From contig CAIIXF020000009.1 in the NCBI GenBank assembly GCA_903813345.2, positions 26,884,740 through 26,948,739 on the forward strand: a DNA stretch of 64,000 nt, in the 5' to 3' direction. Position 1 is the first letter of the stretch. Each line of letters begins with the position of its first letter. The stretch is from Owenia fusiformis. Its lineage: Eukaryota; Annelida; Polychaeta; Sabellida; Oweniidae. The position numbers were made by a program, and so were the translations under genes. Below, piece by piece: positions 27,476-63,674 of the stretch. The notes beneath the pieces were generated by a model. The model had not been told where the DNA came from and searched no databases. It was given only the letters and a program-made list of their open reading frames with translations.

Positions 27476-27549
27476 GTTGTGTTTGTATTTTTCCTGAGCA
27501 TTGCCTCGCTGATCATATACTTCATCGATGCATCACAGTGGCCCCCTGA
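27476..27549 (+). CDS. KCNMA1: BK channel exon: S1 segment
   Basis: Reads VVFVFFLSIASLIIYFIDAS then QWPP plus two bases of a Glu codon. This is the S1 transmembrane helix and the start of the S1-S2 linker. The YFIDAS ending is characteristic of Slo1 S1. The acceptor is TTTGTTTCAG and the donor GA/GTAAGT. The exon enters in phase 0, so the missing upstream exon should end on a complete codon, normally Gly-Arg. No such exon was recognised in the preceding 27 kb. Length 74 nt; completes its last codon with the first base of the exon at 30617. Confidence 0.9.
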
Positions 27550-30616: not shown

Positions 30617-30713
30617 GGCCCAGATAGAGACATGTGTAGAATGGGATAAGAGCATCACTCAACAAGTAGATTTAGCATTCAACATATTCTTCATGATATA
30701 TTTCTTCATACGG
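30617..30713 (+). CDS. KCNMA1: BK channel exon: S1-S2 linker and S2
   Basis: After completing Glu, it reads AQIETCVEWDKSITQQVDLA and FNIFFMIYFFIR. The QQVDLAFN..F..YFFIR part is the S2 helix of Slo1 channels. It keeps the S2 aspartate and the terminal arginine (D153 and R167 in mammalian Slo1 numbering), which take part in voltage sensing. Acceptor ATTTCTAG, donor CGG/GTAAGT; 97 nt, ending in phase 0. The cysteine in ETC matches that of other invertebrate Slo1 proteins. Confidence 0.92.
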
Positions 30714-35340: not shown

Positions 35341-35472
35341 AAGTGTTATTGCCTCCAGTTTTGATCTTCATTAAAGTTTTGATCGATAGATGCCATGCAT
35401 ATATGGTCTAGGAGTTTATAGGGGCATTCATAAAACTAGACAGTCTTATGCCCCCTCACACTGCCTTACAAG

Positions 35473-39303: not shown

Positions 39304-39626
39304 TTCATCTACTGTAAGGGACTGTCATTCATATAAAGGAAGATCTAACCTGACTTCATATATGGATTAATCAAACTGTATTAATTATGAAATTATGTTT
39401 TCTAAAATGGAATAATTTTTTGAGGGTCTGTTGTTTTTTATTTAGTTTATGTCTCCATAATAATTCTATCAATTTACAATAAGTCTATACCAAATTGCTA
39501 TAATCATTAAATGCCTAGTCTGTTTCTTAGAATAACCTTATTATCTATGAGCGGCTATGTATGGGGACAGTTATTATGATACACCTTTACTTTATATTGT
39601 ATTGCAACAAAGAAATACTGAAATAC

Positions 39627-39835
39627 CTTAAACCAAGGTTCATTGTCACATTTGCTGAGTTGGCCATCTCTCCAAGCACGTATCATATTACAAATCTGCG
39701 CTTTTACATCCCCTGGGTAGTTCATTTGGAATTGTTGCACTTGGTCATGTGAAAAATTCAGTTCTGATGCAAGTTGAGTCCACCAGAATCCAATGTTCCC
39801 CGCAAGGTCCCATAGATATTTATCAGTCAGAAGTC
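39627..39835 (-). CDS. LRR-death gene, exon with death domain core
   Basis: Starts by completing a Gly codon and reads LLTDKYLWDLAGNIGFWWTQ, then LASELNFSHDQVQQFQ, YPGDVKAQICNMIRAWRDG and EPWFK. The pattern W..LA..L......I/V..F....P.....Q....I..W is that of a death domain, a six-helix protein interaction fold used in apoptotic and innate immune signalling. Acceptor TTTAAAG, donor AAG/GTATTT; 209 nt, phase 1 in, phase 0 out. The fit to the family is by pattern only. A partner protein cannot be inferred. Confidence 0.8.
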
Positions 39836-40162
39836 CTTTAAATAAAGATTAATATGATTCAGAATTTAAAAGATATCATTAAGAGCTAGAAAGCAAATAC
39901 TTGACTCACTTGACAATTTGGAAAACACTGTATTTGTATAGTATATAACACATATAATCTATTTGTAAAAAGAACTTGAAACAAATCATAAAATCATTGT
40001 GAGGTTTTCGCCATTTTGAACATTTCTTAGTTAGAATAGACTACATTAGACTTTTACAGCTTGTTGAAAAACACCTGGGGTGAGCATTGGGTTGTGCATT
40101 AGATCTAAGACATGAAGCATGGACATAATAGTATTACAATTATGAGTAATAACAGTACTAAC

Positions 40163-41324
40163 CAAATCTTGCTGGTTCAGTCTGTTTATTAGTAAGTCTA
40201 CAACGTTCTAGTAATTCGTTGAGATCATCTGGGTTTTCACGCATCCTTCTCAGGTACATGCTGATTTGTTTTGAGCCCTTCTCACAAATAGCTTTTGGGG
40301 GAAACATGAAGTCATTCCCATCTAAGTAGAGGCCATCACTTTGGATGGATTGTGAAGCTGTAGAGTCTGAATATTTCAAAGCATCTAGATTATCGATTTC
40401 AACAGGAAGGGCTTTAAGTTGGTTATTTCGAATTGATAATGTTGAGATGTTCTTTAGGCAGCAGAGTTCATCGGGAAGACTTTTCAATTGATTATTGGCG
40501 ATTCTGAACATCTGGAGGTTCGTTAGGTTTTTGATGTCACTGCCAATAGCCTCAATCTGATTTCCACTTAGTATGAGCGTGATCAAACTGGTCATTTTAT
40601 AGAGGCATGGCGAAAATTCTTTCAGCATGTTTGCACTCAGATCAAGTATTCGTAATTTAGACAATTTGTGGAAGTTACTCGGGAGATCCTTTATTGAATT
40701 TTCTGATAGGTACAGTTCGGTTAAGTTACTGCAGAACGTCCCAAGTTCAAATGGGATATCATATAGTCTGTGTTTATCTGCCAAATTCAGAGGGCTTATT
40801 GAAGGGGAAATTCTCTGTTGTTTCATACTAAGCACCTCAAGTTTCTTGCAGTGTAGGATAGCCATGGGAAAATTAACCATGCGATTTCTGTCCAAAATCA
40901 ATGTCTCAAGGTTAGGGAGCTCAGCAATACATGATGGCAAATCATGGATTTCATTATCTGTGACATCAATTTCCTCTAATGCTGTATCACGCTGCGGGTC
41001 AATACAAACAGACTCCAAATATTGCCTGGTCACTTTGTACTTTTTGCTTCCGGGGCAGTAGTCTGAGCTTCTTCGTTGTTCCATGAATCTACCTAGAACA
41101 TTTGGAATGTCCACTTTTAGTAATGGTTCATTATGGGAGTTATCAGGCACAGTCTGGACATGTGGAGGGCTGGCAGGCTCTTCCAGGAACACCCCTGGGG
41201 TACTAGCATTAGAGCTAGATGTTGGAGATGAAGACTCAAGTTCCTTTAAGTCTAGAGGTTCAATTAGGGAATGGGGCTGCATTGGGGTTTTCTGGAAAGG
41301 CTCGGGTGGTGGCCAGTCTGCCAT
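40163..41324 (-). CDS. LRR-death gene, first coding exon with leucine-rich repeats
   Basis: 387 codons plus one base. Residues 1-70 are rich in Pro and Ser (MADWPPPEPFQ..., probably disordered). Residues about 113-345 hold leucine-rich repeats of the L..L.L..N.L..LP type, for example LPNLETLILDRNRMVNFP and KLRILDLSANMLKEF, with one irregular insert near MKQQRISPSISPLNL. A charged helical stretch (ISMYLRRMRENPDDLNELLE) leads to the death domain. I chose the Met at 41324, because an acceptor (TTTTTAATTCAG) at 41330-41341 puts the upstream in-frame Met in the intron. The complete protein would be about 504 residues. LRR plus death domain resembles PIDD-like and other invertebrate LRR-death proteins; orthology is not established. 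Confidence 0.85.
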
Positions 41325-42100
41325 GATTCCTGAATTAAAAACCACATGTGCACTAGTGATTTTACAGTTGGAGATTTAACGTTCAATTTAAATAAGATTA
41401 CAATACTAAATATTTACACAGGGTGTTCTTTTGTCGTTTGTAAAAATCATAAAATCATAATCATAAAAAATCATTAATGCCATTGTGACAACATTCCATG
41501 TTTAACTTATTTATTTAGATATGGACCAGCACTAGTTGATTGCAGTTTCATTTCGAGCATTTGCCTAGATTTTGTTATACTGTACAGGGTTCTCACCAAG
41601 AAATGTTTAGACCCCAGATCTTTCGCAGTATCGCGACTGCTTTTCCCCCATGTGGGATCAGAGGTATACTTTTCAAAATAATACTAAATTTTTAAAGGTT
41701 TCTGACTTCCTAATCCTTGTTTATATCCAGTTAAGAGTTTTACCGCAAATAATGTGACAAAAATGTAAAATTAAACTCCAGAAAAAACACTTTAGACTCT
41801 GGAAAAGCTATTAGACATAGCCTAGTGAAAACCCTACTAAGCTTACTACTACTTTTTCCTAAGCTGCTATGACTTGAAAGAAACTACAATCAACTCTGTT
41901 GGTCCACATCAAAATAAAATAAATGCACCACATGAAATGTTGTCAAAAATCAGTATAATGGTAATTAGCTAGGTAATTATGTATCCAAATGATTACTTAT
42001 ATGTGACATTATATAAATGAGATAAAAGGAACATTCCTACCTGAGTACTTTATGTCCTAGAAGTAATAAATGTTTCAAAGAAACTTATCTACCAGGAAGT
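41325..42100 (-). other. Probable 5' untranslated intron of the LRR-death gene
   Basis: On the minus strand the exon begins at 41329 after TTTTTAATTCAG, only five bases before the start codon, so a non-coding 5' exon is expected. A donor-like TACTCAG/GTAGGAAT lies at 42042-42043 and could end it. This is inference from splice sites alone. Confidence 0.35.
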
Positions 42101-42357
42101 AAAAAGTTTTTCAGGAAGTACTCTTCAAAATTAGAGGATGACACACCACAAATAATATGTGATGGTACTTTCGGTTTCTGTTCTGGATATGAGCTTTATG
42201 AGCAGGTTTTATCCTCTTTAGAGTCAACGTTTAGAAGCTACAATCAAAAGTTATCAACTCATTATTATCTATTAAGAGGAGATAAGTGGTATAAACTCAG
42301 AATTAACTTGTTTTTATTGATTATTTCAATATGAATTCACAGCATTGTAATTATCTA

Positions 42358-42500
42358 CAGTGAAACTAGTAAAGTGGAACACCTTTAGAAATAAAACACC
42401 TCTGTAAGTGGAACACTTTCAGAATCACAAAACCAACTGACATAATGTTTAAATGAACCTCTACAAATGGAACACCTTCCGAGTGGACAATGTTTTAAAG
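42358..42500. mobile_element. CAGT-terminus MITE family, truncated copy
   Basis: ACAGTGAAACTAGTAAAGTG followed by GGAACACC words; resembles the copy at 43340-43515. The right end is lost. Confidence 0.5.
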
Positions 42501-42504
42501 GAAT

Positions 42505-43147
42505 GAATATATAAGGGAGCGGAATGGATATATTATATCTGCCCGCATTTATATCCTGCCCGCCCCTCAGATATGATATGTATTCCCGGGTGATATCTAC
42601 CTCAACCCCACTCAATTATGAGATACATAAGGGTTATGTACTGGGAGGTTTTGGATACAGGGTTTATCCTAAGGGAAATATGTGTATCTCACGAGGGACC
42701 GCAGGGACCGAGGGAGATACACATATTTCCCGCGGGATAAACACTGTATCCAAAACCGACCGTACATAACTGGTGTATCTCATACTTGAGTGGGTGTGGG
42801 GTAGATATAACCGTTACCACCTTTTTTAAATGACAAGATAGGCCTATACTCAATTTATATTGAATCAATCTATGCTCAATTTATATTTAACATTTTCATA
42901 ATATTCCTTCAGTTCAATACAATAGAATTGTAATATTTAAACTTTTTGAAAAAATTTAAACTTCTGAAATTAAAATTTTAAAACTTTTTTCAACTTTTGA
43001 AAAAATTCCCAGGAGCGGGATGGATATATTATATCTGCCCGCATTTTGCCTAGAGCGGGACATCTAAAATATATCCTGCCCGCTCCTCAGATATGATATA
43101 TATTCCCGGGTGATATCTACCCCAAACCCACTCGAGTATGAAATACA
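42505..43147. mobile_element. Hairpin-rich mosaic element, copy B
   Basis: Positions 42612-42785 form a hairpin with arms of about 75 bp: GGTTATGTACTGGGAGGTTT against its counterpart before CGACCGTACATAAC, centre CGAGGGACCGCAGGGACCGA. A block with TGGATATATTATATCTGCCC and TTCCCGGGTGATATCTACC occurs before it (42522-42610) and again after it (43018-43140). The plan matches copy A at 11048-11620, but the flanking words differ (GTATCTCATACTTGAGTGGG instead of GTATTCCATACCTGATGAGG). It ends about 57 bp before the S3 exon. Confidence 0.6.
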
Positions 43148-43204
43148 CATGTTTATCAAAAAATGATAAAATACTAATGAATTCAAATATATTTCTTTTT
43201 TCAG

Positions 43205-43316
43205 TTTGTAGCAGCTGCAGACAAATTCTGGTTTCTACTGGAGCTTTTCTCATTTGTTGATTACTTCACAATTCCTCCTTCATTTGTGGCCATCTATCTC
43301 AATAGGAACTGGTTAG
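43205..43316 (+). CDS. KCNMA1: BK channel exon: S2-S3 loop and S3
   Basis: Reads [20 protein letters not shown] and [17 protein letters not shown] plus one base of Gly. This is the S3 helix with the [10 protein letters not shown] motif shared by invertebrate Slo1. The S3 aspartate of the voltage sensor (D186) is kept. The position of mammalian N172, which contributes to the Mg2+ site, is alanine here (Ser in insects). Acceptor TTTTTTCAG, donor G/GTAAGT; 112 nt. Confidence 0.93.
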
Positions 43317-43782: not shown

Positions 43783-43934
43783 GTCTAAGATTCACAAGGG
43801 TGTTGAGGCTTCTCTCCATACCTGATGTATTGCAGTACCTGAATATACTGCGGACAAGTAACTACATACGTCTTACTCAGCTACTTGCAAACTTCATGTG
43901 CCTCTGGCTGACCGCAGCTGGCTTTATACATCTG
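43783..43934 (+). CDS. KCNMA1: BK channel exon: S4 voltage sensor and S5
   Basis: Reads [38 protein letters not shown] and [13 protein letters not shown] (first Gly shared with the previous exon). The S4 arginines at mammalian 207, 210 and 213 are all present, and Asp replaces E219. The S5 end [10 protein letters not shown] is almost invariant in Slo1. Acceptor TTGCCTTAG, donor CTG/GTGGGT (GTGGGT is weaker than the other donors). 152 nt, phase 1 in, phase 0 out. It must join either alternative pore exon. Confidence 0.95.
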
Positions 43935-45750: not shown

Positions 45751-45927
45751 CTTGAAAATTCTGGAGACCCATGGCGTTCAATAGAGGATAGTAATGCGGA
45801 GCGAATAGACATGTTTGATTGTTTGTACTATTCAGTGGTTACCATGTCAACCGTTGGATATGGCGATTTTTATCCCAAAACAATCCTTGGCAAGTGTTTC
45901 GCTATCGTATTTATCATATTTGGATTT
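45751..45927 (+). CDS. KCNMA1: BK channel alternative pore exon A1
   Basis: 59 codons: [20 protein letters not shown], then [20 protein letters not shown] and YPKTILGKCFAIVFIIFGF. It encodes turret, pore helix, selectivity filter TVGYGD and most of S6. Acceptor TTTTACACCAG, donor TTT/GTAAGT, phase 0 on both sides. The turret is two residues longer than in exon A2 and human Slo1. Tyr sits at the position of Y294, the external TEA determinant. The first hinge glycine of S6 (G310) is Phe. About 30 of 57 aligned residues match exon A2. It is intact, and nothing suggests a pseudo-exon. Confidence 0.9.
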
Positions 45928-47278
45928 GTAAGTTTGATGGAGGGTCGACACGAACTGCACATATATATGTATATATTTGTATATATTTATGTATAAATAC
46001 AAATTATATACCATAAATCACATATATGAATCGTGTACATAAACATTGACCCTTTGAAAGACCTTGACCTTTCCCATTACTCTTGAAATCAGATTGACCC
46101 TATACTTTCTGCCAATAAGACTTACCTAAAGTTTATATTCAACTTGCTTCCATAAATAGATGATAGAGATCATACTGTAATTTTATATATCAAAATGTTC
46201 ATCCCATAATCAAATATTTTGTACATGATTGATATACTTTTCCTGAAAAGAGGTAGCTCTGTATTCCCATGATGCACTGTATGAGAGCATTTAATCATGG
46301 TTGTGAATCACCTCTTGTGCTCTTGCAACAAGCCAGCCCTATTTTGATTAATAATTCACAAATTACCTAATTGATTAATTAATTAATCTTTTAGACCTGC
46401 TTATTAATTAATTAATAATAAATTAAGTAAAAGATTTAATTAAGTAAATGCACCTATCCCAGTTATATAAATCGGAACTCATTTGTGATAATGGATGAAT
46501 GGCTTGGTGCCGGGAGATGTAATATTTCTCTTTTTCACTTTCAATTTTAAAGTAAGGCAGTCACATCCAGGACAAATGCACCTAACTTATCACTTTTCTA
46601 CATTTTCAGATTCACTAATCATCGAGGCCAGTTTCCTGAATGTATCTTAGATTTACCATTCAAGAATTCACAAATTAAAATTGTAAATCATAGATACACT
46701 CCATACTAATATGATACTGTCACTGTTCTATGAGGAAATGTCCCATTAGTCATGTTCCAGAAATAATGCAATGTTAATTGAGAAAGTCGGAATCAGCTAA
46801 AGTCAAGAACACAAGCAATAAACATTCATGGATAAGTCTTGTATCTACCGCATTCGACTCCCTTAAATACCTCACCTGGAGTAGAGAGGAGGTTTGATGC
46901 GAGACGTTGGTTGTTATTAAAATATAATCAATCCATTGTGTTCCCTCACCCTCATTCTCTCTATCACAGATACAGATATTAAGATCAGGGGCGCAAGCAC
47001 ATTCTCCAAATACAGGGATCCAGACATCATCCAACACATTCTTTTCTTCTTCTGGAAGATCAAGGTACAATTTCTGGAGGCCTGTGTTTGGAGGATGGCT
47101 GAAGCATGGTGCACGACTTAAGAATCTGCATGATTCAGAAAGTTAAAACGAGAAATAGAGTGGAAAAAGCATGACATTTGATTGGCATTTCCTCATAGAA
47201 TAATTTATCATTTTTCTACTTTAGTACAACAAACAATGTATCTCTCTTCATATCATTATCACACTTTTTCAAACTTAG
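45928..47278 (+). other. Intron between alternative pore exons
   Basis: Contains the minus-strand candidate exon at 46877-47116 and an ATTAATTAATTAA palindromic patch near 46370-46425. No third pore exon: no other TVGYGD-coding sequence was found. Confidence 0.6.
46877..47116 (-). CDS. Unrecognised antisense exon-like open segment
   Basis: On the minus strand an open frame from RAPCFSHPPNTGLQK through LYLDLPEEEKNVLDDVWIPV, ECACAPDLNICICDRENEGE and TQWIDYILITTNVSHQTSSL ends LQ at a strong donor (CAG/GTGAGG at 46876). An acceptor-like CTTAAG precedes 47116. The composition looks protein-like, but I do not recognise the family and found no partner exon nearby. It could be a captured exon of another gene, a nested gene, or chance. 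It lies between the two alternative pore exons. Confidence 0.3.
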
Positions 47279-47449
47279 GTTGAAAATTCGGGAGATCCAT
47301 GGCGAAATTTCGACAACCCGCAAGCCATAACATTCTGGGACTGTTGTTATTTTGGCCTGGTTACCATGTCAACCGTGGGCTATGGAGATATCTCAACAAA
47401 AACAGTCCTCGGCAAACTATTCATGTGTTTCTTCATTGTAGGAGGTTTG
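47279..47449 (+). CDS. KCNMA1: BK channel alternative pore exon A2
   Basis: 57 codons: [39 protein letters not shown] and [18 protein letters not shown]. Same length and border as the single pore exon of human Slo1 and closer to it than A1 in turret and S6 (both hinge glycines kept). The residue at the Y294 position is Ser and the preceding one Ile, so external TEA block should be weak. The acceptor is AAACTTAG with a modest pyrimidine tract; donor TTG/GTAAGT. Phase 0 on both sides. Probably the default form. Confidence 0.93.
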
Positions 47450-49055
47450 GTAAGTATGATTTTGATAAAAAAAAACAGTCTTTATTTGATTTAATTAATC
47501 GTAATTAATATCTAATTGTTGCTTTATCATAAGAATGACATTTGTTTAATAAAAATCTTGCAACATTTTAAATTTGCTAAGTGCAATTAGTAGAAGTTTA
47601 AAATCATATAGAAATTTATTTAAATGTATATTCTGTCATTGATATTTTTTGCTTAATTTACATGTCATTTCACTGCTTCACTGCTTTTAGATGTTAGGTT
47701 TCACACTGCACTGCAGTTCTGATTAAGACCATCATATTTAAACCTCCATTTGAAGACCAATTTGATTCACGTGCTGGGTTTTGCACCATTTTAAACATAA
47801 TTATAACAGAGTCAAGAGTAAGGAAATATTTTCCACAAAGTATAATGTGTCATACACTAAATATGGGTTGAGAAAATGTGTGTTGTTTATAATTCTGTAC
47901 TTAAATTAAATGTCAGAAGAATATTGGATTCAAATTCCCTTTAGGCTACTTGATGATTATTCTAGAACTTAGAAAATACATTTTGAGTACTATATTAAAG
48001 GTGCTGCAAAAACCAATTCAGAGTCAAATGGTCTTTAAATAATATCTGTTCATGTAGTGTTTGATAAAAAGTCTATAAACTCTATGTAATATTACATTAG
48101 TTTATCTTCATAAAAACTTATAAATCAACATAATGATTCATATTGATTACAACAAGGCATACGACCAAAATTGATAGAGGAAACATGTACTCATTGTATT
48201 TAAATACATGTAATATATTCTCCAATTAACCTTGGTGAATCTTTCAACCTCTGAAAGGATTGTATTATACCATGGGCTTCTCTTGAAAGCCCATGGTGAT
48301 ACCTTTTGCAGGTGGGGAGCATGTTTATACTAATAATTCTGCTTGCTACCAGATTTTCTCAAATATGTCCTCTTGTATTATTACGGCTATTTAATAAAAA
48401 AAATATTTTCAAAATATCAAATACCATGGAAAAATTACTGATTTTTTTGGTCAGGGAATTCGTTCGAAGAGACAATTTTCCAAAAACTGGGTTATGACTT
48501 TCAAAAGATGTTCAAGTTGACATTTATATAGGTCTTAAACAATGACATTGTGACCACCTAGAATTGTAACAATGCTAAAAATGTGCCTTACTGAATTATT
48601 CATCCAGGGTATTTATTAGCAACAGGGGATTTAGGTATATTATTTTTCTTTTCAATTTTACCAGCCTTCACTATGAGTAAAATTTTTTTTGATTGGTTGT
48701 TACATTCATTCAGGATCCCCTTTTTGAGAAAATCTGGTATATATTATGTTTTAATATTAATATATTACTATAGAAGAATAGATATACTGAATGACTCATA
48801 CGATATGTATAGATAACATGTTTTGAATGTAGATATTAGCAAATAAATTGAAGGTTCCATTTAGACTTAGCAAGCATGTAATAATATTAAATGCTGATCA
48901 TCTTTTGGCTTTTAACGTAGCATATTGGTAGATCAGTACAGAATTACGTATCAATTTTATAAGCATGGTGTTTTGTATGTAGATTGGTATGTAGATTGGT
49001 GATATGTTGTTTGTATAGAGAGATCTTTCCTGTAGTAAAAACCTTCCCATTTTAG
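47450..49055 (+). other. Intron between pore and S6-end exons
   Basis: A CCATGGGCTT...AAGCCCATGG hairpin lies at 48269-48297. Nothing else recognised. Confidence 0.5.
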
Positions 49056-49147
49056 GCTATGTTTGCCAGCTCGATTCCAGAAATCTTGGAGATTCTAGGA
49101 AATCGGCAAAAATATGGTGGATCGTACAAAAAGGAGACAGGCAAGAG
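49056..49147 (+). CDS. KCNMA1: BK channel alternative S6-end/linker exon B1
   Basis: [20 protein letters not shown] then [10 protein letters not shown] and two bases of Arg. It encodes the cytoplasmic end of S6 and the linker to RCK1. It keeps F315, P320 and both glutamates of the inner charge ring (E321, E324). Acceptor CCCATTTTAG, donor AG/GTACAG; 92 nt, phase 0 in, phase 2 out. Closest to canonical Slo1, so probably the default form. Confidence 0.92.
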
Positions 49148-49222
49148 GTACAGTGATTTCTGCGTCACGTCACGCAATCGTTATTCACTCTGTTTTACTT
49201 TGTATTCATCTGTTCTCTTCAG
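49148..49222 (+). other. 75-nt spacer between exons B1 and B2
   Basis: The spacer has a pyrimidine tract (TTCATCTGTTCTCTTCAG) directly before B2. At 75 nt it may be too short for the B1 donor and B2 acceptor to be joined efficiently, which would help keep the two exons exclusive. That mechanism is inference. Confidence 0.6.
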
Positions 49223-49314
49223 GCTCTCTTCACAAGTTCATTGCCAGAGATAATGAATATACTTGCCCAAAGACAAAAATACGGGGGCACTTTTAGAAAG
49301 GAAGCTGGAAAAAG
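49223..49314 (+). CDS. KCNMA1: BK channel alternative S6-end/linker exon B2
   Basis: [20 protein letters not shown] then [10 protein letters not shown] and two bases of Arg. Same 92-nt length and phases as B1; 19 of 30 complete residues match. F315, P320 and E321 are kept, but Asn replaces E324 and Thr replaces A316. The lost glutamate is half of the ring of negative charge that raises BK conductance, so this form should pass less outward current. Acceptor GTTCTCTTCAG, donor AG/GTATAA. Confidence 0.92.
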
Positions 49315-52300
49315 GTATAATCCTGCACTCGCTGGGGGCAGCGCTACCACCATTTGCCATTTTGTTAACTTTTTGAAATGTACCATGTTTTCCCCCTGAT
49401 ATTTGTCATGTTTATTTTGCCATTCTGTTTCTTGTCATGGCGGGAGCCGTCATGACATGTGCATGAATTTTATCCACCATTTAAAAGCTGCTCGTAATTT
49501 GTAATGCTGCCTCGATTTGTTTCATTCATATATTTTATTCAGACTTGGAATGTTATACTATTATATTAATATAATTATTATATTAATATTTATTATTTTA
49601 TTCTAATATTATTATCAAAAAGTTAGCTCAGATACTATATTGAAATCTTTTGAGAAGTCATGAAATTGTTTTATGATAAAAAATAAATAAAAAAAAACTT
49701 CAATATATATGTAACCTATTTTTGAAATCCAAAAGTATTTACGTAACTTTATGGCAAATGGTTGTAAGATCGGCTTTACCCACTGTGCTGAGAGGATTTT
49801 GCATGGCTGTATAGAGGCAAAATAGCAAGAGGCCACTCAAATACAACCAACTGTTTCACATTATTCTAGAAATGGTGGACATAGTTTATTGTAGTGAAGC
49901 ACTGATAAATGGGATGGAGTTAAAAGGTGCAATTAAAATAAAATATGGCCGCCATATCTTCATATCATGTAAATGTGGTTAACTTTTGATGCTGGAATGT
50001 ATGTTGAACTTTCTTGCAAATCACTAATCATAGGTGATCACAGTGGTTAATACATATAATACATACATCTTCATTACTTCAAATATCTAAAATATTATGT
50101 CAAAAGTCATACCACCTTTATATTTCGTGAAACAGGATGAGGGGATTTACACCAATTTTCGGAATTTGAAAATGAGATTTTTTACACAAATGAATTTCTC
50201 ATAAAATATCAAATTGTTCACCCCCTTGTCTGGTTATTTGTTGAGGGCTTTGTGTATCAGGATATAGTGGTTTTAGCCCCTCCCATTTCATTCGACCTTA
50301 TCGCCCGATTAGTAACATTTAACTACTCTTTTCTATCCTTTCTTATTTATTCTCTCTGGATTTTTGTTCAAGTTTTAGCTGTGCATTAAACTTAATTTAC
50401 TATATATAGTTCATTGTAAACATTGTTGAAGACGGGTATAGTTTTTCCATGTGTATTTTATAGTTTTTGCAATTCACTGTATATTGTATTTGGAGTGTGT
50501 GAGTCACTATACAGTAGTAAGCCATTATTTGAAATACCTCAGGGAGAGACATTAAGATTCTGGATTAGAATTATTCGAAATTTTGGACTTGGATTCCAAG
50601 GGGGATCAGATAATATAAGCTTCCATCCAGAATGTAATAAACTGTGTTTTTGGCCTAACCATTCTTCCCCTATACATCATGCTAACTTTGTATCTGAAAC
50701 ATTCCTTTCAGAAAAAATGGGTTAGTTTTGATATGATATATTGCGGGATCTGGGTTACCTTGTTTGGAGAAAAAATGTTCTGATCACGGAAAAATGTTAG
50801 ATCCTATCATTAGCTACCTATAGCTAAGTATATAAGTCAAAGTCCAAAACTAGCATCCTCCTAAGCATTTATCCAGAATCCGTACCTCCTTCTTCCCCCT
50901 GCTATAACCAATTTGGAAGCCACCGATTAAACTGAATCACGTGATCTAATTATGCACAATGACTTATACATGATTTATGTCGCAGTGTTGCGACAGCCAA
51001 TCAGATTGGGGATTCTTAAACGGGGAAATGCTGACTGCTTATCGCAGGGGGTAAAAAGAAAGAATATATTCTGGATTTTGAAGCCCAGTGACCAGAGGAT
51101 GAAAAAAAGATTTTCATGGAAAAGCTATATCAGTCTATACTGTACTTAATTTTTTATACTGTAAAATGTTAGAAGACATACTATATAATATATTTTGATA
51201 TAGAAATATAAATGTATAGAGATAGGCTCTAGGCTAATAGCTAAACTAGGTTTTTTTGTAGGAAAATACATGTGTTGTACAATTCATGTCATATTGACAC
51301 AATCAAGTACCAAATACATGTACACAATTATCCTATTTTCAGTAGAATGTATAGTTTAGGGATGGTATTCAATATTGTCTATAGTTGTAGATAATGAATT
51401 CAGGTTTGTTAGGGCAAGGGATGGATGAAGAGTTTTTGAGTGAACTTTTTCATTTTCTAGTTAGATTCAAATAAACTGTTAATAACATTATTTTTTAATT
51501 TTATCATATGTAATGTAAGGGGGGGTAAAAGTATGACAACTTTACTTGTTTTCTACAACTCCTCATGTTAAATCCGAAGTAATGTTATTTGATAAATATA
51601 GGATCTCATATTTTCATTATTTTCATTTAGAAGCCTATGATTTATGTATTCCAATGGGAAATTGAAAAAAAGCTAGTTTCACTGAGTTTTGATGAGGAAA
51701 GCTTTTAACAAATGAAATTGTTATCAATTTAATATAAAATATGCCATTGCCATGGATACAAAATACAAACCATCAAAAATAAAGCAACAACCATGGAAAC
51801 ATATTGATTAATTTCAAAATATAATACAGTAAAACCTGTATATCTGAACACCCCTGTAATCCAAACACCTCTCAATATGAACACTTTCAGTCCCAATTTT
51901 GTAATGTCCCAAATGACTCTGCTGTTCAAGAAGTCTTTAAATGTGAACACCTGTCATTCTGAATACTCAGAGGTATTCGGATTACACAGGTTTTACTGTA
52001 GATGATTTATATTTCAGGTATTGTTTAATTTGTAGGTATATTGTGGTTTGTGATTACATTTTCTATAAATAAATCAAATTGGCAAAATAACAGGCATCTT
52101 GCATTTGCATAATGTCAGATTTATAGGGGATATCTCATGACTTTGAAGGATAATTGTACATGATATGTTCTACTGACATCATCCTCAGAACAGCTGTAAA
52201 ATCCATAGATAAATATATGTATAGAAATTGCCTTAAATTATACATGAAAGTACTTTCTACACTGCAACAATCTTTTTCAGTATTTATATATCCATATTTG

Positions 52301-52355
52301 AGAAACATTTAAATAACCTTATTCTGAAAATCACCATTATATTCTTATATTTCAG
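49315..52355 (+). other. Intron before the RCK1 exon
   Basis: AT repeats near 49555-49615. A CAGT-type MITE at 51825-52000. The 100-codon frame at 50423-50725 has no recognised domain. Confidence 0.5.
51825..52000. mobile_element. CAGT-terminus MITE family, best copy
   Basis: Begins TACAGTAAAACCTGTATATC and ends CACAGGTTTTACTGTA, a terminal inverted repeat of about 15 bp. The interior has repeated GAACACC words. 176 bp, non-coding. Relatives are at 35473, 42358 and 43340. Confidence 0.75.
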
Positions 52356-52466
52356 ACACATTGTGGTTTGTGGGCATATTACATACGACTCTGTCTCAAA
52401 CTTCCTCAGCGATTTCCTACACAAAGACCGGGAAGACGTAGATGTGGAAATAATTTTCATGCATAA
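52356..52466 (+). CDS. KCNMA1: BK channel exon: start of RCK1
   Basis: After completing Arg it reads [20 protein letters not shown], then [16 protein letters not shown] and two bases of Lys. This is the first beta strand and helix of the RCK1 Rossmann fold. The aspartates matching D362 and D367 of the RCK1 calcium site are present, as is E374 of the Mg2+ site. Acceptor TTATATTTCAG, donor AA/GTAAGA; 111 nt, phase 2 on both sides. An inverted repeat arm begins 36 nt after its donor. Confidence 0.94.
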
Positions 52467-52501
52467 GTAAGAACTTTGTTATCGCATTTTTCACAAAAGT
52501 T

Positions 52502-52810
52502 TGAAAGGATGATTCTCGGTTTGGAGAACGAAGTTCATCACTCTAATTGAGCGCTATCCCTGCTTCGGACAAATTTGATTTTTTTACATAATATAGATTT
52601 GAATGTCTTCTTTTGAATAGACATAAATTAATTTGGGTAATACTTCTAGATTTTCCATAAAAAATTACTAGTGAACCACCCAACGTCGCTTCTATGATTC
52701 GTACCACTTTTTTAACTTGATGTATTGCATATTTTCGTGGGTCGATTTAAAAAAAATACAAACGACGTATACATGAATATGTCATAAGCATATCGTGAGA
52801 TAATTGTTAG
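52502..52810. repeat. Left arm of a 300-bp inverted repeat
   Basis: GATGATTCTCGGTTTGGAGA, GAAGTTCATCACTCTAATTG, ACCACCCAACGTCGCTTCTA and GTACCACTTTTTTAACTTGA are found as reverse complements, in reverse order, at 58480-58778. The two arms are about 90 percent alike by eye and enclose about 5.7 kb of a single intron. Confidence 0.85.
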
Positions 52811-55800
52811 ATTAGGTTTGCTATAAGTGACTTTAAAACAAAAAAATAAAAAACATTAGTTCACGTGTTAAAGTTCCATTGACCGTGACATCAAGGAAAA
52901 TTGAGCTTTTTGTCATCAGACATCTTTATAGATGGAACTAGCTATGTACTACATTTTCAAATACACTCACATAGAACATATCTAAGATGTTCTTTTTATC
53001 GATGAAAAGATTCTTACATTCGGAAGTTACATTAAAATATCAATTGCAATAGCCGCCTGTTTTTAACATCCCTTTGTCACTCATCCCTTAATTATCTCTG
53101 TGTATCCATTCTGATACTCATAGCATCTTTCTGTTTCACCTGAAACATCTCAGGGCTGAGAAGAAATGAGATGTCATGGTTTATCATGATGCTGTGTATC
53201 TTATACTTGTGTGTGTTCGATTTTGATAGCACCCGAGTGCAACCTAAGGAGCACATACAATACATTTTGTGTATGCCCAGTCTGGTCTTATATCTGCCTG
53301 CTCCGAGGAATTTTGGTGGCGATTTTTTGATTTTTGTAATAGCCTACTACATAGCATCTCTTGTGCGCGTAAATCCCAATGTTTTGAAATAGAAAATAGA
53401 GACTCGATTCTATATCGATAGTTTCACAGATGAGGGTAGCGAATGGGCGCAGCTTTGACGATCAACGAATGATATAACGATATCACGGATTTCACCGAAT
53501 GTTATATTCATCCCTAAATAGCTTATTTATTTAGTCTTAAGATCCTTGTGATGTTTCTATTCATTGCAGTGACTCTGAAATTGCTGTGCCAGATATTACG
53601 TCACAGCGACTCATTTTCCAACATTTAAGCATTTAACTAAATAATTGAAATATAATTATTAAAGAATGAGGACCTTGTGTTTCACTCTGGACGAGGGGGG
53701 CCATGTCTCGGCTAGTTGTGCATTAACGTTTGATACCCTTTTGTGGATAAAAATAATGAATATATGTTAACGTAGCACTAAGCAGATACTTTTAAAGAAT
53801 ATAGTTACACTTAAAGAATAGGTCCAACGAATATATATTGAATATAGGACTCGTTTGATGAACGATCGTTGTAATAATTCTAATAAACCTATAGAAATGA
53901 ATCAACGATTAAAGTGCTTAATTCGGTAATTTCTGTTTATTTTTTCTCACTGCAGTAGATTAAACAGATATTGGTAAGTAAAAATAGTATTCCAACAGAC
54001 TCTTAACTCATTCTATTTGTTCATTAGTGGCAAAATAAGATTTCCCGGTAAAAAACATGACGTCACGAACAGAACCGGTTATGGATTTTTATCGGCAATG
54101 CGTTATGCAACTCGAATGTAAATTCAAAAGTGTTCATGTTATACCGTGTTCTGATTGGCCAGAAAGGAGTTACACTTACCGAAATCACCTCATGGTTCAA
54201 TGCCTTTTGGTTACAAAATTTTAGACGCCTTATGTTAGGTAATACTATCAACTGAGCGTGTTTATTTTCTATATTGTGTTCTGACTGGCCAGAAAGTAAT
54301 TCTGCATGACTAGCTATGTGAAAACGTACCGCTGGGTCGGAGGCTCTAATTTAGGTATTATTTTTTTTGGTTTATCGGAGGAAAAAACGTGACTCCAAAG
54401 TAGTCATCTCTGAATCAATTCCTCACTTCAATGAATGCAGTTGCAATCAATTACACTAACACTTTATAAGCACGTTCGGAGATTATGAACTCCAACAACA
54501 TATTCTAAACCCGTCCTGTTCGTGATGTCATGATAGAGATTTGAAATTGTGTTCCCGATTTTGAACATTAAATTTCACATTTATAAAAATGTTTACAAGA
54601 ACGGTTACTGGTTCGACATGTTAGTGGTATTTAGAACGTGTATAAACTGTATTTTGACCCCATGAGCATCGAACAGACACTTTAAGTTAATTGAAAGACT
54701 TCGTGTTCAAGTTAGCTGAATTTCGTGTAACTTAACTCTGTTATGTTTCTAGATTTTACTTGTGGAGAACAGAAATCATTATCACAATCGTATTTTAAGG
54801 CAAATAGGCCATGCATATGCTTTGAGTTACACGGTGAATGATCAAATTAACATATTTTGGATGTTGAATTTCATTTCAAGTTCATTCGAATTTTACGCAT
54901 TATCCAATAAAATTAATGTATACTGTCTAGGCTGAGACTAACATATATATGTTATTTAATGTATTTAATATACAGGATATATCTGAGAAGGTTATACATG
55001 TATAATATATCTACAAGAGGAACAGTGGGGACCGAGGGTTGATATATTACCTTTACCTGTCGAAAATCGGGCATTTAATAACTGATTTATTTGTAAATTA
55101 TGAGGATAAGATACGCATTGAATGTAAGTTATTGAGGTGTTAGAAAAACAAACTTACAAACAAACCACCGAGTTTAGACATATTATTACATGTATTGTCC
55201 TATTATCAAATCATATATTGTGTTCTATTTCTAAAACGTTAACAGTTTATGGTGTACAATAAAACTATTACTATGAACCACTTTGATACATTTAGACATA
55301 AAATATCAAGTTACTCATCAGCCAACAAATCACAAAATATCGAAAAATACGAGGTACTTGTTCACTCAAATCTTGCAGTCAATTGGTAATGTATGTTATA
55401 TAAATAGTATATAACATATATAATGTATATTATATAAATAGTTCGCAAAGTAAATGAGCAAAAGCGTAACATTTGTATGTAGCATGCTTCATAAAACAAG
55501 TCAGCGTGCATTTTGTTCCTGGCACTGATTGGTTAATAAGTGAATACAATTCGTTGAATGCACGATGCACTCACAAGATTAGCAGCTGGGAAAGGCTATT
55601 CAACAAAAAGTACGCTTTCGTACTCATAAAAGGATTACCCTTTTACAACTTTGACAACTTTGAAGCATGAACTTAGAAATGTACTTACTGTTACTGTTAC
55701 CCTGTGGATCCCAGGGTTTTGATATGTTCTGCGAAGTCATGCAAAGAAAGACCATATAGTCCATTTGTCATTTTCTGAACGTATGAATATTTAAAAGTAT

Positions 55801-56254
55801 GATGTTTTTCTGTGTAAATACTATCATTAGGGATTATTGGAGTGATTTAGCTGGGTTGCCAAAAAATAACTTTGGGGAAAATTTTGGTATCTATTACCAT
55901 AGTAACATACCAGGTATATGGTGGTATCCCAACGCTAAGTCAATAGTCAACGCCATGTTAAGCGATTGCACCCCTCCCTAATCAGCCTATATAATTTTTT
56001 CCCCAAACAAACTTTTTCGGCAACTCAGTTAAATCACTTTAGAAAACCCTTATTATCATAAATCGACCATAAAACATCGTACTTTTAACAAATTCTAGGT
56101 TCACTTTTGGATGTATAGGGGTGACAAATGGACTAATATACTAAAAGTATATGCCAGCTAGTCATATCTGTGACACTTTTGTATGATATGTATTCCACTT
56201 TGAACCACCATCTATTTCAATATTGTGAAAATATATATTTCCCAAATTATAAAA

Positions 56255-57030
56255 TAAATGATCTTGTATTCGCGAATGCCACTAACGCAATTCATTAAAA
56301 TATGAATGGAATATTGGCAGGTACTTTTAATATTTAAATGAGTTGCCCATAGAAAAGTATGTTAATCCGGTAGATGAAATCTTTCATTCCCAAACCATAG
56401 TCTTAGCTTATATTTGCGAATGCAAATAACGCCTTTCGGCTACCGGATTAACCTTCTATTTCACTGGAGACCCATGTAAATACGAATAGTACCTGCCACT
56501 ATTCCATTCACATTTAAATGAGTTAGTCATAGAATACTGGGTTAATCAGGTAACCGAGATGCGTTAGTTGCATTCGCGAATATAAGGTTAGAGTCCATTT
56601 CACTGTTTTATTGCGTCAGTAGAACCCCAAAAATAAGAAATCGGGAGACCATTGTGCAATAATATATGGAAAAGTAGATTCATATTGTACATGAATGACA
56701 TTTGTATATTTCAGATTTTCTCGTTTTTTGTGCAATAAGACTGTGACCTCTTGTAATTTGAAGAATTTCAGCCATGTTAATCTTATTGAAAATAACATGG
56801 CAGAGAAGCATCCATATATAAGAGGCCACACACTTTATAAGCCAAACTAGAAGCAATCCAAGATATACAAATGTCATTCATGTACAATAGGAACATATTT
56901 TTCCATATATTATTGCATGATGATATTGTGATTTCTTATTTTTTAGGTTTTACTGACGCAATTCAACAGTGAAATGGACTAGCTTGTATTCACGAATGCA
57001 AGAAACGCCTGTCGGCTACCGGATTAAACT
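56255..57030. repeat. Cluster of AGCTTGTATTCGC-type elements forming a hairpin
   Basis: Words such as CTTATATTTGCGAATGCAAA and CGGCTACCGGATTAA recur at 56258, 56405, 56570 and 56985 in both orientations. Positions 56560-56720 and 56860-57030 are inverted copies (TCCATTTCACTG, GCAATAATATATGGAAAA, TACATGAATGACATTTGTAT), giving arms of about 160 bp. Borders of single elements are unclear. Confidence 0.6.
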
Positions 57031-58479
57031 ACCTTTGCAATCGTCGGTATTTTAGCGCGGAGATAAATGTTCAATATGACATAAATATTTGATATGACAT
57101 CGATGAATACTTTCATCATTCTGGTGGAAATGTCTACCAAACTCCCCTCCCTTGTTCCCCTTCCCCCAAGTAACTTGTTAAGCTAAGTTCACACCAACGG
57201 CGCTTTGATGGCGCTTTTAAGCGGCGTGCAAAGCATAATCAACTGATGTGAATTTCTGAAAATTGTGAATTAAGCTTACATCGAAAAAGCTAAAAATCCT
57301 TTGTTCATGTCACTAAAGGTTCGAAAACGTTATTACATTTTCCAGTTACTTTAGTTACCACAGTTATCCAAGGCTATTTGGGCAAATAAAATCCGTAGTT
57401 TGAGTGATCAATTCACGCTCAGCGATACTGCATGAGGGACATGAAAAGTTGTTTATTTTCCAATAAATCCTGCCATCATTTGGTACATCAAAGAACCTGA
57501 TTATTGGCTAGATAAAATGATGTCAAAGGTTGTAGGTAGCAATATGTCCATAACAAAGGATTAACTTATTGCTGAAATTGAAAAAGAACAACCCATGCCA
57601 TCATCAATCTAGCAAATCCAAAATGACTAATGACTCTGTTTAATGGTAACTGAAAAAAGACTGGAAACTTTTATTATATATAGCAACATACTGAACATAA
57701 TCGATGGTTTCATTTTGGCAATCGAGGTTTTATTACAGATTCTTATATGATAAACCAAACAACTTTTACATTTACCAGTCGCTTATGGTAATTAGCCTTA
57801 CATTTCTAGGTATACGTTTTATCGCAATCGTGTCAAAATATAAATTGTATTGATAAACAGAAAAGAACACAAAAAATCATATACGGGCGCCATTTTTCTA
57901 AGGTGTTTCTAAGTGTTGTTTAATCTCTCTAGACTATCTCTCATCAACGGCTTATTGGAGATTGGTTGAACAATGAACGTGTTATTTATAGCTATAATAA
58001 CCACGTTGATCGATGCTTGGGCGAATTTTAAGGTTTAAATCAGGAAGAGAGAGGTAGAAAGAGGCGTAATCTTGTGGCAAGTTCCTCACCTCCTACGCAC
58101 TGAATTGTGTTTCGATTCCCTATATATTGTATAGATTCATCAGGCAGTTTTCAGTGTATTATAAGCAGAAAATCCCCATCGACCACGTAATCACGTGGTA
58201 GGATAGAAGTGATATAAATACACCCTCTCCAGCTCACAGCAATTGACTAGCTTATATTCACCACTAGCATAGTTCATAGCAAGTGGTGACATCTAATTAA
58301 TAGATGATTAATCAATTTTATATATGACTTGTAAAATGCCAAAAATCTGAAGTCGCTCTTTTGAGAGGCCCTCTATTGGATGAATGTGTATAAAATGTCA
58401 GAGAATATCTCGAAAATGGGACACGATTTAAGAATGAATTATTTTCGAATGTTTCTTAAAAACATATTGAAAGGATTTT

Positions 58480-58778
58480 TTCATGATATGCTCATGACAT
58501 ATCCCTGTACGCTTTGTTTGTCTTTTTTCTCAAATTGACCCACGGAAATATGCAATACATCAAGTTAAAAAAGTGGTACGAATCATAAAAGCGACGTTGG
58601 ATGGTTCACTAGTAATTTTTTGATGGAAAATCTAGAAATATTACCCAAATTAATTTAAGACTATTCAAAAGAAGACATTCAAATCTATATTATGTAAAAA
58701 AATCAAATTGGTCAGAAGCAGGGATAACGCTCAATTAGAGTGATGAACTTCGTTCTCCAAACCGAGAATCATCCTTTA
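58480..58778. repeat. Right arm of the 300-bp inverted repeat
   Basis: Reverse complement of 52502-52810. It ends at TCTCCAAACCGAGAATCATC, matching the outermost bases of the left arm. No transposase lies between the arms. Confidence 0.85.
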
Positions 58779-60650
58779 CAGATCTATTGTAAATGTTTCT
58801 GTCCAAATTTTGGTGAGTTGCCTGATTCATTAGTAAATTCAGCCAACAAAAAGACATCCAGGTTATGCCATTTGTTCACTGGGGTAACTGATTCTTAGCC
58901 GTCCATTACGTATATACATGTACTAAAGCTTTAAGAAAACCTTGAGTCTTTATCTTTGTTACTATGAATCCAGAACATCGATCAGTCAAGGGAAAGGGGT
59001 CTAGTGTAAATTGCTTACTTCTGATATCTTTACTCATCCTTCCTCTTTTAGAATAAAACTGATTAAGGTTTTTATTGATGTTTGGCATTGCAGCCTTCTT
59101 AGTCTAAGATGTTTAATTCTCATGTCAAATAGCGGGGGCTTTATGCTTATTCAAGTCCATTGCACTTTTCTAATTGAACAATTAAAAGGAAAATAACCAA
59201 TCATAGTTTGTAGATCTGTGTTTCTGTAAATAGATCTGTTCATTTCAAATAGTTATGATTTTCTAAAAAAAACACTGAAATGGTTGAATTCTACACAATG
59301 TTAATCTTTACTCAATAGAATGTCGCATTTTTCAAAAATAATTATGATAGACTAATAAATCCAGGGCTCATTTTTGGAATGGGAGTAACCTTCCATGATA
59401 TAAAGGTAGGCCCTGGTGAATAACTTTGACATGTTTGAGAGTTTGTAACTGGCATTAAAAAGAAATCTTCTAGGACCTCCTTAACAACACTAAACAATGG
59501 TTTAGGGGTGTTGTCAAAGTATCTTCATTTGTGGAAGATGAAATTTTGTAAGAGAAGAGGGAGTGAATGACAGTTAATTAAATGTAAAATATTGTTTTTT
59601 GGCATTCTCATACTTCTCACATCTTTCTGTTTTTAAACTAGCAAAATGCTCTGATTTCGATTGGCAAATTGATTGATCTGATATCATCTGCTGGAAGGGG
59701 TGCAATTTTCTAAGTGTAATTGCTTTCATATATCAAATCAAGACAAAATATCTCCATTATGGTAATCAGAGGCTTTTAAAGCAATCTGATTGGTGGAGAC
59801 CCACTACAGTCCTTGTCTTCCCATCATACTCCTGGTCCCTTAATCTCTGTTATTGCTTATCTGGTCGTCTTCATTCTGGGAAAACTGTACTGGGCCAAAA
59901 TTAGTCTTAACAATGTCTATAACTTCTAAAAAGGAACTGATAGAAATCTGGAAACTTTTATGATAGATTTTTTTATATTACATTTGTAATAAGTAAATCA
60001 GCTGATTAGGATATCTTCCACAACTGAAGATATTTGGACATGATCCCTTGTATAACAGCAAGGAGGTGGATTTTATATTTCTGTTGATACTTAATATTTC
60101 TGCTCCTGTAATTTGTCATCGAATGTTGCACATTCTGTGAAAATTTCAATGGAATATATTGAAAACCCCAAATTACAGAGATTAATTAATATGATAACTT
60201 TTTGACCACCCCTTGTATATTACCTCTCAATTCATTCCTCCTACTAAATTTGAAAATGATATAATATGTGTGTGATTCCGGTTTTCCAATTATTAACTAC
60301 TTGTTTTTCTAATTACAATGCTTTGTTTGTGGACCTAACTATTTATCTTTATTTTTCTTTATCTTGATCAGTGCTTTAAAAATATGATTTGATAGTTTTA
60401 GTGGTGTATGTTAAAGAATATTTTGTATGGCTGCTCTAGTTTATTAATTTTGGAGAAATCTTATAATAAAAGGAACATCAAAATATTGATAAATTTTATT
60501 AATTATGCTTTCAACAATCTTAAATTTTTAGTAATCTTGGTCAACAGGAAAAACATTGATTTTTGTAAAAACATAGTTTTGACGAAGTAAATGCAGCCCA
60601 AACTAATCCATTGTCGCTACTGTAGGTGCATGTACCATGGTTTATTCTAG
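58779..60650. other. Intron end without recognised content
   Basis: No exon or repeat was delimited. The last bases before 60651 (TGGTTTATTCTAG) make a usable acceptor. Confidence 0.4.
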
Positions 60651-60756
60651 ATTTCTCCCAGATCTTGCGCTTGAGGGCTTGTTCAAACGCCACTTTACCC
60701 AAGTCTCATTTTTCCAAGGGACCGTAATGGACTCAAATGACCTAGAAAGAGTTTGT
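60651..60756 (+). CDS. KCNMA1: BK channel alternative RCK1 exon C1
   Basis: The frame is too short to stand out alone. After completing Lys it reads [20 protein letters not shown] then [15 protein letters not shown]. This is the second strand-helix unit of RCK1 (human [18 protein letters not shown]). 106 nt, phase 2 in, phase 0 out, donor TGT/GTGAGT. Q397 is kept; Ser replaces E399 of the Mg2+ site. 19 of 35 residues match exon C2. Its sequence is nearer to canonical Slo1 than C2. Confidence 0.9.
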
Positions 60757-62064
60757 GTGAGTACCCCATCTAAAAACGCTAATATTACAATATGAATATG
60801 CATTTCTGGAGTGTCGATACTAGATCTGGATTTCAAATTTCAATTGAATGTCTTGACGTTAACCTTTTGTACAATGGCCCATATTTCCCTGATAATGTCC
60901 CGTTGGACTTCTACATTAATGAATATGTTAAAGCAATATTTGTGAGAAGTTCAACATAAAAATGAGACTCCGCTGGAAGCCAACAATGTTATCAGCAATT
61001 TTAGAGACTAACAGCAAACGTTTTGTTAGGTCTTTGAATCCCCCGTCAAAATGCACCAAGAATGTTTAGATAAAGGTGGAAAATACATAATACTGGATAA
61101 CAGTAGTAATGTCAAATGATTAAATAATGTTACAGTACTAATCTCTTTGCTGTTGTGGTACATAATTTGATGCATAATAGCAACAGACGACGGAGCGTCA
61201 AGATGATATGAACAGGAGAAAAGAATTATAAAATATAATTGTGATGCTGCTCCACATACCCGCGACTCCTGTTCCCATAACAACCATAACTTTTTTATTT
61301 TGAAACAATTTGTCGTGACAGTTGCAGGCTAAATTGTTACAATGTCATTCTACAATCTGTAGCAATTTCATCTCACAACAGGTAAATCTGTAGCAATTTC
61401 ATCTCACAACAGGTAAATCTAATGAAATTAGAGCATTTGTATCTTTACTTTCCGGACACCCTGTATGTCATTCTCAAAATATATGTAGTGTGCAAAAAGT
61501 GTCCTTATCCCAAACAGTACTTTAACCTTAGCATTATCGGTTAAATATATGAGGAATGCATATTCATATCAAGCAGATCGTGTAAATTGTTATAATATAT
61601 AGCTGTCATAGCTGACTAACATTTGTACTATTCTAATAAATTGTTTTAATTTGTTGACTTATGTTAATTGCTGTGTTATGAATGTTTTTATACTAAAACC
61701 ATTGCCCAGGATAGGGATGCGTGCAAGGATGCTGTTATTGCAAAAACCATCTTTATGCCTTTTTGTTTGGGTCAGCAGGCCAATTGTGTCCCAATATTAG
61801 AGTTTTGTCATCGATTTTGGAGTTAAGGAGAGAAATGTCTAGCAAATCAAAAACTCAATTATCAATTAAAATCATACAAAGTGAGTGTAAAGTGGTTTTT
61901 GCAGTAACAGTGATGCAACTGTGCATGTTGTCGAAATTGTATTTTATTCACTTGTTATTTCAGGATGCGTATGTTTGGTGTGGTTGTGACTAACATTTAA
62001 AACTCGTTTTCACAAATTTGTTTAATTGAACTTGTACACTGACTGAATTCAATTTGATTTTTAG
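60757..62064 (+). other. Intron between alternative RCK1 exons
   Basis: A 31-bp direct repeat (CTGTAGCAATTTCATCTCAC and the following 11 bases) is tandemly duplicated at 61357-61418. No third copy of the exon was seen (no LFKRH-coding sequence). Confidence 0.5.
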
Positions 62065-62170
62065 AAAACTACCAAATCTAGCACTAGAGGCACTATTTAA
62101 ACGCCATATTTGTCAGACCCGATTTTTTACTGGTTCTGAAATGGAGAATCATGATTTACAAAGGATTGCT
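62065..62170 (+). CDS. KCNMA1: BK channel alternative RCK1 exon C2
   Basis: After completing Lys it reads KLPNLALEALFKRHICQTRF then FTGSEMENHDLQRIA. Same 106-nt length, phases and position as C1. The acceptor is ATTTGATTTTTAG and the donor GCT/GTAAGT. Q397 is kept, but Arg replaces E399, a charge reversal at the Mg2+ coordination site facing the voltage sensor. FKRH is invariant in both forms. Intact with strong splice sites. Confidence 0.92.
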
Positions 62171-63521: not shown

Positions 63522-63674
63522 GTAAGGACAAGTGACAGGTGTCTACTGTTGACCAATAACAATGTTGAGGATGTTGATGAGGAGGACGGCACTAATATAA
63601 TGCGAGTCTGCTACATGAAGGACTTCTGTAAGCAGATACGCATCACAGTACAACTTCTACAGGCTGAGTCTAAG
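63522..63674 (+). CDS. KCNMA1: BK channel exon: RCK1 middle part
   Basis: 51 codons: VRTSDRCLLLTNNNVEDVDE, EDGTNIMRVCYMKDFCKQIR and ITVQLLQAESK. It matches the Slo1 RCK1 stretch around ANKYC.DPD.ED..NIMRV.S.K...  and IQLLQYHNK. EDGTNIMRV and QLLQ are conserved, but the ANKYC motif is replaced by TNNNV, so this part is fast evolving. Acceptor TTCTGTAG, donor AAG/GTGAAA (a weak donor); phase 0 on both sides. The next expected exon (LLNIPSW...) was not identified in the remaining 326 bp. Confidence 0.85.

Follow-up and report, generated by a model that had tools for sequence, protein, structure and literature searches.

The question raised by this locus is whether a single BK channel gene can choose between two different exons for its selectivity filter. 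The locus lies in a 64,000-nt stretch (C9:26884740-26948739 of a 498-Mb assembly; hereafter the window) of the annelid Owenia fusiformis and was examined together with the next 40 kb, giving a gene region of 104 kb. The gene is Slo1, encoding the BK channel alpha subunit. A sequence-only reading of the window had described three successive pairs of tandem exons, with equal phases within each pair and consensus splice sites, which would yield up to eight channel cores if used exclusively. All six exons are present as described, but the count was too low, as there are four pairs and 16 one-member-per-pair combinations (Table 1). Judged from the sequence, the four tandem pairs are most probably mutually exclusive exons of one Slo1 gene, which would provide up to 16 different channel cores.

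Four tandem exon pairs in one Slo1 gene

The gene shows the features by which Slo1 is recognised, namely a K+ selectivity filter, a Slo RCK domain and a BK_channel_a domain, with the calcium bowl in RCK2 encoded downstream in the same gene as in true Slo1. Among database proteins the closest one of full length is P0002, a BK channel of Owenia fusiformis. It maps piecewise onto the gene at a cut-off of 70% identity, while two exons, that for S1-S2 and one for RCK1, are read in P0002 itself instead. Two isoform cores, one built from the conserved and one from the divergent members of the pairs, both match the Pfam families PF07885, PF00520, PF22614 and PF03493 above cut-off.

The doubled sites are the pore exon, the exon for the end of S6 (S6-end) and two successive RCK1 exons (RCK1-2 and RCK1-3), all of which appear to have been duplicated in tandem with retention of both copies. 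Each pair consists of adjacent homologous exons with equal phases and intact splice sites, the pattern typical of mutually exclusive exons, and every paired exon is preceded by AG and followed by GT. Within the pairs 32/57 (56%, pore), 19/30 (63%, S6-end), 19/35 (54%, RCK1-2) and 22/51 (RCK1-3) amino acids are identical, the first three values agreeing with the approximately 53-63% estimated before. The introns between the members measure 1351, 75, 1308 and 1191 nt, respectively. By comparison with ten relatives, pore B, S6-end A, RCK1-2A and RCK1-3B are the conserved members. The RCK1-2 pair encodes human residues ~381-415; it had been assigned to the first RCK1 helix, whereas it follows the first strand-helix unit, which is contained in a single exon. 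All 16 combinations (16/16) with one member per pair keep an open frame from S1 to the end of the modelled part of RCK1.

When the gene was scanned with 24 exons or exon pieces of its own, eight representing the four pairs, only these four sites were found doubled; the other 16 queries gave one in-gene match each (E up to 0.01). The scan covered the gene outside the linker exons located around 75, 81 and 85 kb. The 104-kb gene region was also shuffled 50 times with its dinucleotides preserved. The best matches to the conserved copies in these shuffles reached at most 25.8 (pore), 22.3 (S6-end), 23.1 (RCK1-2) and 23.1 bits (RCK1-3); the real partner copies score 70.5, 46.6, 45.1 and 49.7 bits, so far above the shuffled maxima that chance is excluded.

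Paralogues and selection on both copies

Genome-wide, pore B finds matches in 8 places and pore A in 17. Among the strong matches, two Slo-type pores occur only in this gene, while four other Slo1-like loci contain one each. These four further Slo1-like genes, C5a (L013-L016), C11 (L021-L023), C5b (L024-L026) and C1 (L027-L028), show 25-70% identity with human Slo1 in the individual matched pieces. All 15 of their recognised pore, S6-end, RCK1-2 and RCK1-3 exons (15/15) are single within their own locus, as is the first RCK1 exon of C11; the S6-end exon was not recognised in C1. A calcium-bowl match is present in C5a and, weakly, in C5b, and none was found in the fetched stretches of C11 and C1. 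Within the C11 locus, an 82-bp unit is repeated 19.9 times (L022:5620-7256), its units resembling the start of the S1-S2 exon of C11 itself; this may be a minisatellite grown out of the exon edge. A separate locus on C3 (L018, ~3751-5150), whose gene looks Slo2-like, matches a single pore segment five times, with four of these matches spaced ~112 bp apart.

The members of each pair differ mainly at third codon positions. Identity at positions 1/2/3 is.67/.79/.42 for the pore,.70/.90/.23 for S6-end,.57/.74/.46 for RCK1-2 and.53/.69/.37 for RCK1-3. When the four pairs are pooled, position 2 is kept and position 3 changed in 81 codons, versus the reverse in 14 (p=6e-13), and the individual tests give p=3e-6 (pore), 6e-6 (S6-end), 0.015 (RCK1-2) and 0.004 (RCK1-3). 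With C11 as outgroup, 29/143 second positions versus 44/73 third positions have changed on the divergent branch (p=7e-9); the corresponding values are 25/127 versus 32/59 with C5a, 25/127 versus 35/63 with C5b and 17/96 versus 33/53 with C1, the latter comparison covering the sites other than S6-end. On the conserved branch, too, second positions changed less than third positions with the four paralogue outgroups. Since both branches retain second positions much more often than third positions, each copy was under protein selection, and the earlier proposal of old duplications whose copies were kept by selection is thus supported. As read from these codon changes, the history of the divergent copies as a whole is one of protein constraint over a long time, though of a more relaxed kind.

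The divergent products are likewise recognised as channel parts. Pore A alone is assigned by Pfam to Ion_trans_2 (3e-17) and the all-divergent core to the Slo RCK domain (2e-27), and the best structure matches of the latter are BK channels, 5tj6 followed by slowpoke isoform J (7pxe), with E values of 9e-133 or less.

Residue exchanges between the copies

Human numbering is used here, with positions checked, and frequencies refer to distinct relatives including P0002. Both pores keep the TVGYGD motif, and their differences surround the filter. At residue 294 the conserved copy has Ser and the divergent copy Tyr, which is also found in 50/80 relatives; at residue 295 Thr is replaced by Pro, present in 1/80 (P0139, see below). 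Pore A combines a longer turret with a proline after the filter, and the proline also occurs in non-Slo K+ channels. In the S6-end pair Glu324 of the conserved copy becomes Asn (Glu or Asp in 87/92), and in the RCK1-3 pair Asn449 becomes Asp (Asn in 77/78). Residue 399 is Ser in RCK1-2A and Arg in RCK1-2B, compared with Glu in 89/98 relatives, so that the Glu of the Mg2+ site is missing from both Owenia copies (60651-62170); as the conserved copy already lacks E399, this exchange neither creates nor removes the known Mg2+ site. Pore A has also lost a diglycine hinge, which was considered as a meaningful change and was dropped, because G310 is present in just 15/80 distinct relatives.

The exchanges therefore map to the outer mouth (S294Y/T295P), the inner charge ring (E324N), the Mg2+-site residue 399 and N449, positions that coincide with or adjoin ones investigated in mammalian BK channels. 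We take residue 294 to determine external tetraethylammonium sensitivity, E324 to increase the conductance and N449 to contact the calcium bowl. PMC12962649 states that Y294 mutations can cause atypical inactivation at low external K+, and PMC12416887 and PMC12733198 place E321/E324 at the cytosolic pore entrance and have E374/E399 bind Mg2+. The functional effects of the Owenia exchanges are predictions: they would be expected to tune the channel at these sites.

Origin and age of the duplications

In the pore and RCK1-3 pairs the divergent member comes first, in the S6-end and RCK1-2 pairs it comes second. As the order differs among sites, separate single-exon duplications, rather than one duplicated block, are the most likely origin. 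In trees of 31-57 columns the two Owenia copies as sisters were not rejected at any site (p-AU 0.46 for the pore, 0.13 for the fourth pair, 0.73 for RCK1-2, and 0.82 for the S6-end clade, whose tree has 31 columns).

A possible hint at the age of the pore pair is provided by P0139, an unnamed Slo1 fragment of 265 residues encoded on a 1762-bp contig. Among the proteins compared, its S2-S5 part is nearest to that of the nemertean Lineus (0.78), and its pore is 0.54 identical to Lineus. The turret of P0139 has 32 residues, as in pore A, compared with 29 or 30 in 143 other Slo-type pores (a count comprising, among others, the conserved pore of Owenia together with three paralogues and leaving out C5a with its shortened turret). 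Furthermore, P0139 shares proline 295 with pore A and is its sole carrier among 142 Slo-type proteins. A pore tree joins P0139 and pore A with support of 63/80 and a long-branch warning, and the P0139 pore is 53-54% identical to pore A, pore B and Lineus alike; equally low pore identity occurs in 4/320 other protein pairs of similar S2-S5 identity. With even identities and a tree of this support, P0139 is not claimed as a proven orthologue of pore A. Its pore may belong to the exon type of pore A, here in a different phylum, or may have converged upon it and, given the shared turret length and proline, the alternative pore may be older than Owenia.

Probable exclusive splicing and alternative readings

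Most likely, each mRNA is spliced with a single member of every pair. At the S6-end (92 nt) and RCK1-2 (106 nt) pairs, inclusion of both copies or of neither shifts the frame and leads to an early stop, and exclusive choice is enforced there because of this shift. The annotated protein P0002 contains one member per pair, having pore B, S6-end A, RCK1-2A and RCK1-3B and skipping all four divergent copies cleanly. The divergent copies would be spliced into mRNA as well, with the choice being presumably exclusive also at the pore and fourth pairs.

Several observations weigh against this interpretation. The pore (177/171 nt) and fourth (153 nt) exons stay in frame when doubled or skipped, so exclusion is not enforced by the frame at these two sites; some mRNAs might then hold both members or neither and specify unusual subunits. 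The introns offer no base-pairing signal that would enforce exclusion: in 24 end-to-end pairings, each compared with 15 shuffles, z ranged from -2.0, the strongest, to +2.3 (22 pairings are distinct, because the 75-nt S6 intron is so short that it stands for both of its ends), and competing intron base-pairing as the mechanism is unsupported. Yet such non-exclusive products are highly improbable, as joint inclusion at S6-end or RCK1-2 puts the mRNA out of frame, P0002 has one of each pair, and two successive pores, or none, would be expected to misfit the tetramer. The divergent copies might, alternatively, be relics or rarely spliced exons without lasting function, with the conserved channel as the normal product. 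P0002, the representative of a five-sequence cluster, indeed holds no divergent copy, and no Owenia isoform with divergent exons was among the matches listed in three protein searches. A search of 5.8 billion proteins with pore A (lengths ~500-1590) gave 4 candidates and 2 matches, both 53% identical, and a search for short fragments gave 98 matches from 151 candidates, whose identity along the whole query did not exceed 53%, hence no close relative of pore A. The divergent copies also change faster at codon positions 1 and 2 (20% versus 5% of second positions with outgroup C11) and carry more residues unseen in the compared relatives (34/211 core residues versus 10/211 in the conserved set). 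Nevertheless, all four (4/4) retain open frames, phases and splice sites despite third-position identities of 23-46%, and with all four outgroups change was much rarer at their second than at their third positions, which makes loss of function unlikely.

The merger of two genes in the assembly, already named by the sequence-only reading as a finding that would speak against the pairs, or of two haplotypes, was rejected as extremely unlikely. Its one favourable point is the existence of the four further Slo1-like genes. However, the pairs are interleaved with single exons (one for S4-S5, one for the RCK1 start and one R4) on one contig of 38.9 Mb, the window contains no N, and the genome-wide pore searches place two strong Slo-type pores in this gene alone. 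The pair members are just 43-63% identical, too distant for haplotypes, and the four paralogues are single-copy at every recognised site. Mutually exclusive use of the four pairs is therefore retained as the preferred reading.

Comparison with other Slo1 genes and channels

Going by its title, Soom et al. 2008 reportedly described a mutually exclusive alternative exon 9 in mammalian slo1. This exon (e9alt) is also described in PMC11758846, which, like PMC7371421, cites that paper. By-eye comparison with the bird model P0103 and the fish model P0115, both of which contain the two exon 9 versions in tandem, identifies exon 9/e9alt of KCNMA1 with the Owenia S6-end pair, reaching from the end of S6 to the C-linker. 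In both systems the acidic residue 324 is lost in the alternative copy, being Ala in P0103 and P0115 and Asn in Owenia S6-end B. KCNMA1 has this one pair, whereas Owenia has four. Arthropod slo models contain two S6-end versions (three in Danaus) and two versions of the exon corresponding to the third Owenia pair. The fetched arthropod models show no doubled pore and no doubled fourth exon; in contrast, a later RCK1 exon is paired in arthropods and single in Owenia.

Among the fetched proteins the S6-end was doubled in 14/159, RCK1-2 in 6/176, the later RCK1 exon (R5) in 2/136 and RCK1-3 in 1/148, while no doubled pore was found in the 149 with a pore match (0/149). These counts are not frequencies, because the 220 proteins were chosen by similarity to the divergent isoform and pairs are visible only where a model wrongly kept both members. 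The one doubled RCK1-3 belongs to P0001 from Globodera, which repeats a whole block with identical residues, is included in the S6-end, RCK1-2 and RCK1-3 counts and is probably a gene-model error.

Tandem duplicated exons are enriched in ion channels, and the human, fly and worm KCNMA1 orthologues each have distinct events, according to PMC9741552. Alternative exons spanning the pore are documented in another channel family, as NALCN possesses exons 15a/15b and 31a/31b, with 15a/15b in lophotrochozoans including annelids (PMC3557258). Like the Owenia pair these are tandem and mutually exclusive; unlike there, the filter residue itself switches (E or K), whereas Owenia Slo1 keeps TVGYGD. In Brugia malayi, slo-1a and slo-1f differ in an alternative RCK1 exon with a tested effect on drug sensitivity; this is exon 14, different from those of Owenia, and the available sections of PMC6779273 contain no alternative pore.

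In a literature search limited to open-licence papers no report was found of alternative pore exons or of a doubled fourth exon (RCK1-3) in Slo1. The suggestion that alternative selectivity-filter exons are new for Slo1 stands within this scope, while the S6-end position is known from mammalian exon 9 and from arthropods. Overall, the positions of the S6-end and RCK1-2 pairs were already known, and the pore and fourth pairs appear to be new.

Gene layout

Exon coordinates are compiled in Table 1, where L009 coordinates count from the window end, L009:866 being 866 bases beyond it. The gene extends at least 30 kb beyond the window end. P0002 contains a hydrophobic stretch ahead of S1 (REWWVFLGSSLITFAAWVIVVLIW) at the location of S0. 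No exon for S0 and the first 105 residues of P0002 was found either in the window or in the 40 kb that follow it; these exons presumably lie upstream of the window. Antisense within the Slo1 intron 30714-43204, an open frame of 405 residues with leucine-rich repeats occupies 40161-41375 on the minus strand (Pfam LRR_8, 1.7e-22).

Table 1. Exons of the Owenia fusiformis Slo1 gene, in window coordinates unless indicated otherwise
Feature	Position	Strand	Remarks
Pore exon A, divergent (STVGYGDFYPKT; turret 32 residues)	45751..45927	+	177 nt, phase 0/0; not in P0002
Pore exon B, conserved	47279..47449	+	171 nt, phase 0/0; present in P0002
S6-end exon A, conserved (PEILEILGN)	49056..49147	+	92 nt; present in P0002
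S6-end exon B, divergent (PEIMNILAQ)	49223..49314	+	92 nt; separated from copy A by 75-nt intron
RCK1 exon 2A, conserved	60651..60756	+	106 nt; present in P0002
RCK1 exon 2B, divergent	62065..62170	+	106 nt
RCK1 exon 3A, divergent, fourth pair	63522..63674	+	153 nt, phase 0/0
RCK1 exon 3B, conserved partner of 3A, outside window	L009:866-1018 (C9:26949605-26949757)		153 nt, phase 0/0; in P0002
S1, single copy	27476..27549	+	cag|GTTGTG..CCTGA|gtaagt; 100% match to P0002
S1-S2 loop and S2, single copy	30617..30713	+	ctag|GGCCCA..TACGG|gtaagt; residues identical in P0002
S2-S3, single copy	43205..43316	+	
S4-S5, single copy	43783..43934	+	
RCK1 start (HIVVCGH), single copy	52356..52466	+	first RCK1 strand-helix unit

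Implications

Known splice variation of BK channels is located around the gate and the calcium sensor, and no description of a varying pore exon was found. It is moderately probable that Owenia possesses a Slo1 that chooses between two selectivity-filter exons, with three more pairs along the gating linker and RCK1, so that the outer mouth, the inner charge ring, residue 399 and the N449 site would be set independently in 16 cores, and that this alternative pore may predate Owenia. A second natural pore exon, together with four exchanges at or beside mutagenesis sites, would offer a ready-made experiment on conductance, inactivation and divalent sensitivity, which would separate the contributions of the outer mouth, the inner charge ring and RCK1. 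An annelid is thereby added to the lineages in which Slo1 has been altered by exon duplication, partly at the very exons that are duplicated in vertebrates and arthropods.

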